This document shows positions 57,127-61,157 of a stretch of DNA of 64,000 bases, piece after piece. The notes under the pieces were generated by a model that was given only the letters and a program-made list of their open reading frames with translations, had not been told where the DNA came from and did not search any database. Made by a program: the position numbers and the translations under genes. Within the stretch, counting starts at the first letter, position 1. Each line of letters begins with the position of its first letter. Location: positions 1 through 64,000 of the forward strand of contig JACJNX010000031.1 in NCBI GenBank assembly GCA_014695255.1, written 5' to 3'. This stretch comes from Cyanobacteria bacterium FACHB-63. Lineage in GTDB: Bacteria > Cyanobacteriota > Cyanobacteriia > Leptolyngbyales > Leptolyngbyaceae.

Positions 57127-58098
57127 ATGCAAGATTCAGCAACAGGCGTAATCCGCCACAATCAAGATTTTCTTCAAGTTATTAAAAGCTATTGGCAACT
57201 CACAAAGCCGCGCATCATTCTCTTGCTCTTGATTACAACAGCAGGCGGAATGTGGATTGCGGCTCAGGGACAGGTTGACCCGGTACTGTTAATTGTGACG
57301 TTGATCAGTGGCGCATTTGCAGCAGGATCAGCGAACACAATTAACTGTTTGTACGATCGTGATATCGATTACATCATGGAGCGTACTCGCAGTCGTCCGC
57401 TTCCATCGGGTCGAGTCAGTGTTCGAGATGCCCTCATCTTTGCCGTCACCTTGGCAGTGACCTCGTTTGGGTTATTGACGTATTTCGCGAACTTGCTGAG
57501 TGCTTGTTTAGCAATGTCAGGCATCTTCTTTTATGTAGTCGTCTACACGCACTTGCTGAAGCGTCATAGCACCCAGAATATTGTGATTGGTGGGGCTGCG
57601 GGTGCGATTCCGCCGCTTGTAGGCTGGGCTGCGGTGACGGGCGAGCTGAGTTGGGCAGCTTGGGTGTTGTTTGCGATCGTTTTTCTTTGGACTCCGCCGC
57701 ATTTCTGGGCGCTGGCAATTCTGATTCGCGAAGATTACGCCAAAGTTGGTGTTCCAATGTTGCCTGTGGTGAATGGCAATGAGCCAACGAGCAAGCAGAT
57801 CTTTTACTACACTCTATCTTTGATTCCGGTGTCGCTGTTGTTGGTTTATCCGTTGCATGTGATGGGGGCAGTGTATGCTGCAATCGCGCTTCTATTGGGT
57901 GGCATCTTTGTGCAAAAATCTTGGAATTTGATGCAGGCTCCGTCAGATTTGATGGTGGCACGATCGACCTTCAAGTATTCGATTCTGTATATGATGCTGC
58001 TGTGTGCGGGAATGGGAATTGATTCACTACCTGCGACTCATCAGCTTGTCAGTGCGATCGTTCAACAAGCTCAAACCATTGTGGGAGTAGTTTTCTAG
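57127..58098 (+). CDS. ctaB: protohaem IX farnesyltransferase (CtaB/COX10 family)
   Basis: It turns haem B into haem O. Polyprenyltransferase motifs are [29 protein letters not shown] (Asp-rich Mg/diphosphate site) and the second acidic region near the C-terminal part. Nine hydrophobic segments; 323 aa. Closes the ctaA-B pair, divergent from ctaC-D-E. Confidence 0.95.
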
Positions 58099-58138
58099 TT
58101 CTTGAGTAAGCGGCTGTTGCTTAAGGGAGTTAACTACT

Positions 58139-58252
58139 ATGAACTTTCCTAAAGGAAGCTTTATTTTGACCTCAAGAGTTGCAGCATTGTGTGATGAACT
58201 ATTCCGATCGGAGGAGGTCATCCACTTCTTAAGACTGATTTTCGAGCAGTAG
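58139..58252 (+). CDS. possible 37-aa microprotein
   Basis: The frame MNFPKGSFILTSRVAALCDE... lies between ctaB and the transposon, with AAGGGAG 10 bases before its ATG, and a terminator 64 bases after its stop. Nothing about its sequence suggests a function. It may be a leftover of a mobile element. Confidence 0.3.
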   Translation: MNFPKGSFILTSRVAALCDELFRSEEVIHFLRLIFEQ

Positions 58253-58315
58253 AGCAAAATTATTCTAACGACATGGGAACTTAGATAGCCGCAACAATGC
58301 GTCTAACATAAAAGG

Positions 58316-58345
58316 CACTCCGAGGATGTGGTCGGGGTGTTTTTT
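58316..58345 (+). terminator. Rho-independent terminator
   Basis: An 8-bp stem with one G-U pair (CACTCCGA with TCGGGGTG), an 8-base loop and six T residues. It could end the ctaA-B transcript or that of the micro-frame at 58139-58252. Confidence 0.75.
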
Positions 58346-58408
58346 ATTGGGATAATACTGGGTATCAGACAATAGAAGCAAAGCCTGAAAGCTTTTATGT
58401 GACTGCAG

Positions 58409-58659
58409 CCACAAGTTGTCCAGTTTTGGAACCATAAGTTGTCTAACCCTTCGCTTCAAACCCTCATTATTTCGTGCCGACGATCGTGGGTCGCTCCTTG
58501 CTTTAGAACCATAAGTTGCCCGAAAATCGGAACTGCAAGCATAACCTGTCCAAAAGTCGAACGCTAAATCAAGGCTTTCCAACATTTTGAGACTTAGAAC
58601 GGCAAAACCAACCTCTTTTGCAACCATAAGTTGTCCAAAACAAACAACTTATGGTTGCA
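58409..58659. repeat. five direct and one inverted copies of AACCATAAGTTGTCC-type motif
   Basis: Direct copies start near 58409 (CCACAAGTTGTCC), 58430, 58507, 58537 (AAGCATAACCTGTCC) and 58622; the last is followed by an inverted copy, forming a perfect 15-bp inverted repeat (58619-58633 with 58645-58659) and an 11-base spacer. Spacings are ~21, 77, 30 and 85 bases. They lie directly outside the type V-K left end. They resemble the spaced transposase-binding repeats of a Tn7/Tn5053-like transposon end, not of the V-K type. No coding region for such a transposase is seen. Confidence 0.6.
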
Positions 58660-58666
58660 ATCACAT

Positions 58667-58836
58667 TGTACATTCACTAATTAATTGACGCTTTAACACA
58701 TTTATGTCATCGGTCTCTAAACTGCTAGAAGTTTTATCTCATGACCCTTCTAACAGCTTTTCTATAAATCGTTGTACTTCATGGCGGTTAACAAATTAGA
58801 TGTCGCAATCGTTAAAGTTAACAAACTCTATGTCGT
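58667..58836 (+). repeat. type V-K left-end TnsB-binding repeats
   Basis: The terminus begins TGTACATTCACTAATTAATT. Four similar units follow the pattern ACAAAyTxxATGTCG: 58674-58691 (terminal unit), 58695-58711 (AACACATTTATGTCATC), 58790-58806 (AACAAATTAGATGTCGC) and 58820-58836 (AACAAACTCTATGTCGT). The last two are exactly 30 bases apart. I recall the ShCAST left end beginning TGTACAGTGACAAATTATCT, with similar units. Confidence 0.7.
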
Positions 58837-58880
58837 GTTCTGTGACGAGAACATTTATTGAAAGATTTTAGATTTAACAG

Positions 58881-58924
58881 ATTGACTGTCAGTTTAGATA
58901 GCTATATTTTGTACATAGTACAAA
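58881..58924 (+). promoter_or_regulatory. tnsB promoter with overlapping palindrome
   Basis: TTGACT (58881-58886) and TATTTT (58904-58909) form a -35/-10 pair at 17 bases. A perfect palindrome TTTTGTAC-ATA-GTACAAAA (58906-58924) covers the -10 and start region. It ends 19 bases before the tnsB ATG. It could be a repressor operator; which protein binds is unknown. Confidence 0.6.
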
Positions 58925-58942
58925 AGTTCTTTGGCTAAACCT

Positions 58943-60658
58943 ATGCAGGATCCAGGCAACTCACAACATCTGAAGGAGTCTTTCTCAAAGGAAACAGAAT
59001 CTTTTCAACAAAACGCAATTGTCACAGAGCTATCGGATGAGGCGAAACTTAAGCTAGAGATTATTCAAGGCTTAATGGAACCCTGCGATCGCGCAACCTA
59101 TGGCAAGAAGCTCAAAGAAGCTGCCGCAAAATTAGGAAAGTCGGTGCGATCGGTACAAAGGCTAGTCAAGAAGTGGGAGGATGAAGGGCTAACCGGAATT
59201 ACAGGTGCTGTTAGAGCGGACAAAGGACAGTATCGAGTTGGTGAGGATTGGGAACAATTTATCATCAAGACGTTTGAAGAGGGCAATAGAGGAAGTAAAC
59301 GGCTTTCTCGTGCACAGGTTTACATGCGAGTGAGGGCACGAGCACAGCAGCTTCAAGTCGAACCCCCCAGCCACATGACGGTATATCGAATACTCAATCC
59401 GCTGATTGAGAAACAGGCGAAGGCTAAAAGTACTCGTTCTCCGGGGTGGCGCGGATCAAGGTTGTCCCTCAAAACGCGGGATGGGCAGGAGTTGATTCCA
59501 GAAGCCAGCAATCATATCTGGCAGTGTGACCATACCCGTGCGGATATTCGGTTACTTGACAAATATGGTGAAGAACTGTCCCGCCCTTGGCTCACGACAG
59601 TCGTGGATACTTACTCACGCTGCATCGTGGGTTTTAATCTGGGTTTTGATGCACCCAGTTCACAGGTTGTGGCGCTAGCTTTACGTCACGCCATTCTCCC
59701 GAAGCAATATGACCCAGATTATAAACTGCACGAGCAGTGGGGAACCTATGGGTTGCCACAACATCTGTACACGGATGGCGGGAAAGATTTTCGATCGCAA
59801 CATCTTCAACAAATCTCAGTTCAATTAGGGTTTGTTTGCCATCTACGGGATCGACCATCAGAAGGCGGTATCGTAGAACGCCCCTTCAAAACATTCAACA
59901 CAGAATTCTTTTCAACCTTGCCTGGATACACAGGTTCTAATGTTCAAGAACGACCAGGAGAGGAAGACAAAGCTCAATGGCTAACCTTGCGAGAGTTAGA
60001 GCGGTTGTTGGTGCGCTACATCGTAGACAACTACAATCAGCGCATCGATGCTCGGATGGCAGACCAAACCCGATTTCAACGGTGGGACGCTGGGCTACTC
60101 GCAATGCCGGAGATGCTCTCAGAGCGAGAGCTCGATATCTGTCTGATGAAACAAGCACGGCGGATGATCCAAAGAGGAGGATATCTTCAGTTTGAAAACG
60201 TTATGTATCAGGGTGAAAAACTTGCTGCTTATGCCGGAGAAAGCGTTGTCGTTCGATACAATCCCCGCGACATCACCATGCTTTTGGTGTATCAACGCAA
60301 AGATGATCGAGAAGAGTTCTTGACCAGGGCTTATGCTCAAGATTTGGAAAGTGAGCAACTGTCTCTGGATGAAGCACAGACAATTAACAAAAAACTGCGC
60401 TCATTGGGTAAGGCAATCAACAATCACTCAATTTTGGAGGAAATTCTGAGTCGTCACACCTTTGTAGCAAACAAGAAAACCCGCAAAGAGCGTCAGAGAG
60501 AGGAACAAGCCGAAATTCGTTCTACCAAACCAACAGGAGAAGTAGATTCTCCTGTTGATGTATGGAATCAACAACCTGACTTGTCTCAAAAGGGCAACTC
60601 TACACCAATGCCCGAAGTATTTGACTACGACCAACTACGTGATGATTACGGATGGTGA
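58943..60658 (+). CDS. tnsB: transposase TnsB of type V-K CAST
   Basis: A DDE/RNase H-fold transposase of the Mu/Tn7 TnsB family, very similar to ShCAST TnsB over its length by memory: MEPCDRATYGKKLKEAAAKL, RSPGWRGSRLSLKTRDG, SNHIWQCDHTRAD, LYTDGGKDF and RDRPSEGGIVERPFK. Catalytic residues by that alignment: D196, D278 and E312, keeping the 34-residue D-E spacing. N-terminal helix-turn-helix domains (~35-160) bind the ends; the C-terminus FDYDQLRDDYGW fits the TnsC-interacting hook. It has 571 aa from the ATG at 58943 (a TTG at 58931 is possible). It appears intact and ends 3 bases before tnsC. Confidence 0.93.
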   Translation: MQDPGNSQHLKESFSKETESFQQNAIVTELSDEAKLKLEIIQGLMEPCDRATYGKKLKEAAAKLGKSVRSVQRLVKKWEDEGLTGITGAVRADKGQYRVGEDWEQFIIKTFEEGNRGSKRLSRAQVYMRVRARAQQLQVEPPSHMTVYRILNPLIEKQAKAKSTRSPGWRGSRLSLKTRDGQELIPEASNHIWQCDHTRADIRLLDKYGEELSRPWLTTVVDTYSRCIVGFNLGFDAPSSQVVALALRHAILPKQYDPDYKLHEQWGTYGLPQHLYTDGGKDFRSQHLQQISVQLGFVCHLRDRPSEGGIVERPFKTFNTEFFSTLPGYTGSNVQERPGEEDKAQWLTLRELERLLVRYIVDNYNQRIDARMADQTRFQRWDAGLLAMPEMLSERELDICLMKQARRMIQRGGYLQFENVMYQGEKLAAYAGESVVVRYNPRDITMLLVYQRKDDREEFLTRAYAQDLESEQLSLDEAQTINKKLRSLGKAINNHSILEEILSRHTFVANKKTRKERQREEQAEIRSTKPTGEVDSPVDVWNQQPDLSQKGNSTPMPEVFDYDQLRDDYGW

Positions 60659-60661
60659 TCT

Positions 60662-61063
60662 ATGTCTACTCAAGAAGCAGAAGCGGTCGCACAACACCTG
60701 GGCTCAATTCAATTGAACGACCAGAAACTACAAGCTGAAATCGATCGCCTCAATCGTAAAAGCTTCGTCTCGCTGGAACAAGTCGAGAAATTGCATGATT
60801 GGCTGGAGGGAAAGCGTCAAGCTCGGCAGTCCTGCCGAGTCGTTGGAGAATCGAGAACCGGTAAAACGTTAGCCTGTGATGCTTACAGGCTTAGACACAA
60901 GCCGAAGCAAGAGCCAGGACAACCACCCGTTGTTCCTGTGGTTTACATCCAGATTCCGCAAGAGTGCGGTTCTAAAGAGCTATTTCGCGTGATTATTGAG
61001 CACCTGAAGTATCAGATGACAAAGGGCACGGTAGCTGAAAACATTTTAGGCACCAGTAGATAG
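60662..61063 (+). pseudogene. tnsC: truncated TnsC (AAA+ regulator) of type V-K CAST
   Basis: The first ~123 residues match ShCAST TnsC by memory: LQAEIDRLNRKSF, LEQVEKLHDWLEGKRQARQSCRVVGESRTGKTLACDAYR (Walker A, K68), VPVVYIQIPQECG, EHLKYQMTKGTV. Homology stops at about 61037; ten unrelated residues (ENILGTSR end) follow to the stop. The expected length is ~276 aa, so Walker B, sensor and arginine finger parts are missing. It cannot form a normal ATPase. Starts 3 bases after tnsB. Confidence 0.9.
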
Positions 61064-61075
61064 AGAGTTTAGAAA

Positions 61076-61157
61076 TGCGGATGAAAGGACTTGAACCTTC
61101 ACTTCTTGCGAAACCAGAACCTAAATCTGGCGCGTCTACCAATTCCGCCACATCCGC
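61076..61157 (-). tRNA. tRNA-Leu (anticodon UAG)
   Basis: The minus strand folds with acceptor GCGGATG/CATCCGC, a D-arm region GGTAGACGC, anticodon stem CCAGA/TCTGG around loop TTTAGGT with anticodon TAG, a long variable arm (TTCGCAAGAAGTGAA), and T-arm GGTTCAAGTCC. The discriminator is A, CCA not encoded. Intact, it ends 13 bases after the truncated tnsC stop. tRNA genes are known homing sites of type V-K CASTs. Confidence 0.95.

Follow-up and report, generated by a model that had tools for sequence, protein, structure and literature searches.

Within the window, a 64,000-nucleotide stretch of cyanobacterial DNA, ctaB is followed by a 268-bp segment (58398-58665), a CAST remnant and, on the minus strand at 61076-61157, a tRNA-Leu (UAG) identified by tRNA scan, which we propose as a shared attachment site. 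The CAST left end starts with TGTACATTC at 58667, one base after the end of the 268-bp segment at 58665, the lone base at 58666 having been placed by script. It extends on the plus strand to 58835, bears its own distinct repeats and agrees in 85 of its first 90 bases with the CAST left end of a sister species. Next on the plus strand are tnsB (58931-60658, 575 aa), with Pfam rve and Mu-transpos_C domains and a score of 794 bits to TnsB chains 7svw/8rdu, which we take to be type V-K (ShCAST protein), and a truncated tnsC (60662-61063, 133 aa) covering positions 20-101 of 189 of the TniB profile. Everything past the truncated tnsC is deleted, Cas12k, TniQ and guide included, up to a surviving 21-nt tRNA-Leu 3′ flank (61055-61075) that is colinear with the sister species. 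Judged by these features, the neighbor is a probable type V-K CAST remnant, with tnsB and a broken tnsC, lying between the 268-bp segment and tRNA-Leu. The sequence-only reading had placed a CAST directly beside a second, unrelated element; that arrangement was confirmed, with one base separating the two.

Allowing up to three mismatches, AACCATAAGTTGTCC occurs six times across the 64-kb window, and all copies fall at 58407-58656. Five are on the plus strand (58407, 58430, 58507, 58537 and 58622) and one is on the minus strand (58642), as the sequence-only reading had counted them; copy 58537 carries three mismatches and the inverted copy 58642 carries two. Start-to-start spacings were measured as 23, 77, 30 and 85, so that the last three of the values given earlier were recovered and the first, given as 21, was not. 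The last copy ends 10 bases short of the CAST terminus instead of the 8 claimed. Shuffling the 64 kb 100 times gave 1.15 AACCATAAGTTGTCC matches on average and never more than 5, compared with the observed 6. In 60 first-order Markov simulations, the biggest cluster per 260 bp held 2 copies, compared with 6 in the window. The motif had been described as different from the CAST repeats, and it is: those of the CAST are GTTAACAAATTAGATGTCG and GTTAACAAACTCTATGTCG. Extra repeats of the V-K CAST were ruled out as an identity for the motif because it is absent within the CAST.

The repeats had been taken for a single left-over transposon end. Instead, the terminal inverted repeat and the register of the sites define both ends of a miniature element, complete and without genes, that spans 268 bp. 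Its boundaries were set by script at TGTGA termini, from TGTGACTG at 58398 to CAATCACA at 58665, with the right terminus toward the tRNA. Positions 58397-58419 and 58644-58666 form the 23-nt terminal inverted repeat, which is 87% complementary. Sites were scanned using a 12-base model, CATAANNTGNCC, and offsets were counted from the element termini. The left end (LE), on the plus strand, consists of terminus TGTGACTGCAGCC with site 1 (58398-58421, 12-mer at 58410-58421), site 2 (58433-58444), site 3 (58510-58521) and site 4 (58540-58551), for offsets of 12/35/112/142. The right end (RE) has an inner plus-strand site (58625-58636), at offset 29 from the RE terminus, and in the opposite orientation a terminal site on the minus strand (58642-58665, 12-mer CATAAGTTGTTT at 58642-58653) with terminus TGTGATTGCAAC. 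Note that CATAAGTTGTTT scored below the site-scan cut-off and was taken from the AACCATAAGTTGTCC motif search. The six motif copies are thus four LE and two RE transposase-type sites. They belong to the TnsAB-fusion branch of Tn7-like elements, and TnsAB binding is predicted from their position. The element's flanks, TTTTA and TTGTA, form no 5-bp duplication, and the right flank is CAST sequence.

Two other features overlap the element. Its inverted RE sites form a hairpin with a perfect 17-bp stem (58618-58660, z −8.6), for which a role as transcription terminator was rejected after no terminator-like site was scored in 58000-59000. A 120-aa open reading frame on the minus strand (58265-58627) has no Pfam match and on that ground was rejected as a gene.

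Public genomes were checked for the motif near tnsB-type genes, as the sequence-only reading had proposed, and genome G216 was found to hold a TnsAB element whose ends and site register are those of the window element. This 4,894-bp element encodes a 907-aa TnsA-TnsB fusion, a 378-aa TnsC and a 275-aa TniQ. The fusion protein contains TnsA N- and C-terminal, rve and Mu-transpos_C domains and is 100% identical to the TnsAB of Nostoc sp. UHCC 0926. It scored 931 bits against PDB chain 9bw1_M, which we take to be the TnsAB of PmcCAST (type I-B2); the TniQ matches chains 8v32_J (TnsD) and 8fcu_P (TniQ), presumably also type I-B2 PmcCAST proteins. Tn5053/Tn402-like elements are without TnsA. A Tn5053-like parent is ruled out by the TnsA domains of the autonomous element that shares these ends, and of the Tn7/Tn5053-like affiliation suggested earlier only the Tn7-like part was retained.

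Site offsets in the G216 element are 12/35/113/143 for LE and 12/29 for RE. Identical values were obtained for a gene-less 292-bp element of N. punctiforme NIES-2108 (L023), and a gene-less 291-bp element of Nostoc sp. XA010 (L025) has 12/35/112/142 and 12/29; the window's offsets are within 1 bp of all three. A 406-bp element in G024 has LE sites at 12 and 112 and RE sites at 12 and 29, with an extra match at 42. Matches in G174 and L026 were left out of the comparison because they have no clear partner end. Among ten elements whose flanks were compared, 5-bp duplications were seen in four (CGATC in L023, GTGCG in L025, TTGTG in L027 and TCAGC in L146) and not in the other six, which are the window element, the G024 and G216:C5 copies (L024, L028), L144, L145 and L147.

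Several further members show how varied these ends are. Plasmid p057_J of Nostoc sp. C057 carries a gene-less 292-bp element (L146:1501-1792) with TTTGCC-type sites and TCAGC on both flanks, which is a further mini-element subfamily. Plasmids of Tolypothrix PCC 7601 and PCC 7712 hold TnsAB-TnsC-TniQ elements of 4,909 bp (L144:3827-8735) and 4,904 bp (L145:3827-8730), which, judged by length, are probably Tn5469; the PCC 7601 annotation splits the genes into several pieces, and a second copy of ∼20 bp of the right terminus lies immediately beyond that element. In G216:C7 (L027:13720-13770), the duplication TTGTG of the autonomous element includes the first bases of another terminus (TGTGACTGTAACCATAAGTTTGCC), so that one family member is inserted across the boundary of another. 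In G025:C8 (L061:5694-10644), a TnsAB broken into two frames lies between CATAAGTTGAGC sites, and these ends are another variant within the same TnsAB branch.

Termini of this kind were also found downstream of tRNA-Leu(UAG), at 31 nt in G024 and G009 and at 32 nt in G518 and G012. The class scan required the tRNA-Leu 3′ end, 30-58 nt and then CCATAAGTTG; it returned 4 of 338 genomes, the denominator being all genomes scanned whether or not they contain the exact tRNA 3′ end, and a narrower tRNA-end pattern returned 2 of 388 class genomes. At this tRNA, the 406-bp mini-element of G024 is complete, and G009 and G012 have TnsAB, TnsC and two TniQ-family proteins, with sites reading GTTGGAC as opposed to GTTGTCC in the window. 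In G518, a TGTGACTGTAACCATAAGTTGTCC end is joined to a TnsD-like fragment, a 91-aa frame with 61-62% identity to the C-terminal parts of the large TniQ proteins in G009 and G012. Within the genus, the 3′ flank of tRNA-Leu was readable in seven of eight genomes, G003 being dropped because the tRNA was not found in the locus. The site is polymorphic: it is occupied in the window and in G006, and the first 90 nt in the other five contain no TGTGA, TGTACA or CCATAAG apart from one weak two-mismatch match in G001. The flanks of those five are mutually dissimilar and provide no clean empty site. CyCAST is described in PMC10293859 as homing 30-33 nt downstream of a tRNA-Leu, and the review PMC11406308 states that the I-B2/I-D branch reaches tRNA genes via TnsD and that V-K attachment sites are mostly tRNA genes.

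The closest genus-mate at the tRNA-Leu locus is G006, the sister species mentioned above, at 96% DNA identity. A CAST remnant of ∼740 bp lies there at the same tRNA-Leu (L135:19172-19912, in G006:C28) and was assigned to the same kind as the window CAST because of the 85 identical bases among the first 90 of the left end. It retains both ends along with CRISPR repeats; a separate repeat-spacer unit contains 17 nt of tRNA-Leu as its spacer, and the interior of the remnant has no open reading frame of at least 90 aa. GTG stands before the protospacer. Measured from the protospacer start, the right end lies at 58 bp, and its distance to the tRNA is 34 nt; ShCAST has a GTN PAM and an insertion distance of 60-66 bp. 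The remnant is flanked by TGTGATTGT on the tRNA side and GTCCAACTTATGGTTAA on the far side without a clean 5-bp duplication. We read these two flanks as one TnsAB-type terminus that was probably split by the G006 CAST. The older terminus is 25 nt from the tRNA, compared with 31-32 nt in the four relatives, which speaks for some looseness in spacing. In the window, the original spacing from tRNA to mini-element was lost through CAST insertion and deletion. V-K-type right ends at tRNA-Leu were found in one of 319 genomes, namely G006, again counted over every genome scanned and not over those with the exact tRNA 3′ end.

When the window DNA was searched in 58 genomes, four matched, its own genome counted, and a terminus-pattern search in the phylum gave 4 of 386 genomes; a comparison with plasmids gave no match to the window element. 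The best match outside the window, 160 bp at 76%, is in G009:C37, which is another genus and another place. This copy runs from LE sites 3 and 4 through the shared interior into the RE, and is truncated at its 5′ side. No second complete copy of the 268-bp form was found in these searches, and the Nostoc gene-less forms are a separate subfamily. Genomes of the family with a 40-53% identical TnsAB yielded single two-mismatch matches and no GTTGTCC cluster; two of these genomes are G009 and G012, in which the tRNA scan revealed the GTTGGAC-type elements at tRNA-Leu.

For the window's own genome, the sequence-only reading had proposed looking for a second motif cluster with a transposase nearby. 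A lone right end does exist at G000:C13:50447-50504, with a terminal site, an inverted site and a third site, but no TnsAB accompanies it: the genome has no TnsAB match at 1e-90, a level reached in 32 of 388 class genomes. Its three TnsB-like matches are at 1.4e-17 or weaker, and one of them is the window's CAST. The mini-element is an orphan in its own genome, unless the draft assembly (179 contigs, 99.98% complete) lacks its helper. Scanning 20 kb around the C13 right end revealed no tRNA, nor did the scanned stretches around G009:C37, L023, L025 and L146, so not all family members home. Repeats apart from any transposase had been thought to speak against a mobile element, and they do occur, in the form of the C13 right end in a genome without TnsAB; relatives had also been put forward as a check, and five of the seven readable genus genomes are without such an end in the tRNA-Leu flank. 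Because an autonomous element elsewhere is bordered by the same ends at matching offsets, we read the former as probable non-autonomous copies and the latter as a polymorphic site.

The explanation that best accounts for the locus as a whole, and that we hold with considerable confidence, is that a MITE-like mini-element of the TnsAB branch came to lie near tRNA-Leu and that a V-K CAST then inserted between the two. Positions 58398-58665 would be a non-autonomous transposon in which a four-site LE is fused to an inverted-pair RE with no genes, and which would have been mobilized in trans by a TnsAB-TnsC-TniQ/TnsD machine. A homing TnsD most likely brought it to tRNA-Leu(UAG), as in the relatives 31-32 nt downstream. 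A V-K CAST, of a kind that in the sister species has a guide matching this tRNA, would then have inserted on the tRNA side, one base from the terminus, and would afterwards have decayed from inside tnsC through its right end. Mini-element and CAST most likely aim at one tRNA, and a shared landing site explains their adjacency better than chance. The two distance rules, ∼31 nt from the tRNA and ∼58 bp from the start of the protospacer, lead to nearly the same base, so that no coincidence is needed. If the window CAST used the G006 offset and a 5-bp duplication, the mini-element would have been ∼30 nt from the tRNA.

Synteny around ctaB adds one event to this history. The neighbor of ctaB in G006 is tRNA-Thr and not tRNA-Leu; in the window, the mini-element and tRNA-Leu come after it. 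Aligned by eye, synteny with G006 breaks at 58392-58397, within ∼6 bp of the left terminus of the mini-element. Because the position of ctaB differs, a rearrangement near 58392-58397 also took place. A long open frame resembling a phage-type integrase comes after the tRNA-Thr locus of the window's own genome (G000:C148, L119:2950-4116).

That break bears on the order of events. With the CAST present first, the mini-element would have been inserted later by the CAST left end or would have come with the ctaB rearrangement, and the break within ∼6 bp of the left terminus, together with ctaB being elsewhere in G006, speaks for such an order; family members also do insert at each other's ends, as in G216:C7 with its duplication TTGTG. 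However, a later insertion homing to the tRNA should fall between the tRNA and the CAST, not past the CAST, and in G006 the CAST sits within a pre-existing terminus of the TnsAB type. We consider this order rather unlikely. More improbable is that the 268 bp were never a mobile mini-element and represent a full TnsABCD-type element that homed to tRNA-Leu at this locus and whose genes were then removed on the spot by an internal deletion. Two family genomes (G009 and G012) do have elements with TnsAB, TnsC and two TniQ-family proteins at the same tRNA, and of the G518 element a right end plus a TnsD-like fragment is left, which makes such decay possible; it is made less likely by the recurrence of the same LE-RE junction and interior, 5′-truncated, in a different genus and place (G009:C37), and by gene-less 291-292-bp Nostoc versions with duplications at three different sites.

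A host origin of the repeats, as a terminator, an iteron-like series or a protein-binding array unrelated to transposition, would suit the perfect 17-bp hairpin at 58618-58660 (z −8.6). It is nonetheless very hard to credit: 58000-59000 has no terminator-like site, the inverted pair that makes the hairpin is the RE layout of the other four elements compared, and the array keeps the fixed register of transposon ends.

Among the closest known systems are Tn5469-type elements of Nostocales (TnsAB fusion, TnsC, one TniQ, ∼4.9 kb), the G216 termini and offsets being those of the window. The window element differs in being 268 bp long and gene-less and in residing in a host of another family, and its sites end in GTTGTCC whereas those of Tolypothrix end in TTTGCC. 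The comparison with the type I-B2/I-D CAST branch (PmcCAST, CyCAST, McCAST) draws on the TnsAB of the G216 element, with its 931-bit match to 9bw1_M, and on the homing of CyCAST downstream of a tRNA-Leu. Unlike those CASTs, G009 has four transposition genes only, with no cas gene among them, in the stretch from the tRNA to the tnsAB start, and the window element has no gene at all. Like a MITE, the window element is short and gene-less with terminal inverted repeats, and 5-bp duplications border the 291-292-bp relatives in Nostoc; in contrast to a MITE, it has an asymmetric pair of ends (LE and RE) with several sites each, as in Tn7, and it may be aimed by a target selector. The ends and repeats of the neighboring V-K CAST (58667-61063), whose TnsB matches the V-K TnsB chains at 794 bits, are unrelated to those of the mini-element. 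Tn5469 is named in PMC11406308.

The branch of transposons is known, as are homing to tRNA genes and V-K targeting. Gene-less mini-elements and the stacking of two elements at one tRNA appeared in no title or abstract opening found by literature search. MITE-sized derivatives that lack genes and have a full LE and RE exist in the TnsAB branch, which is also the source of the I-B2/I-D CASTs, and they offer candidate minimal donor ends of ∼155 bp (LE) and ∼41 bp (RE). Two kinds of target selection meet at one tRNA, the RNA-guided element lying one base beside the end of the other in the window and inside it in the sister species, and competition for attachment sites thereby becomes testable. We suggest only tentatively that TnsD-guided and V-K RNA-guided elements aim at the same few base pairs, where gene-less mini-elements also occur, and that a CAST arriving at tRNA-Leu(UAG) therefore falls next to or within the terminus of a resident TnsAB-type element and can sever that terminus from its transposase, which would amount to rivalry through the point of insertion.
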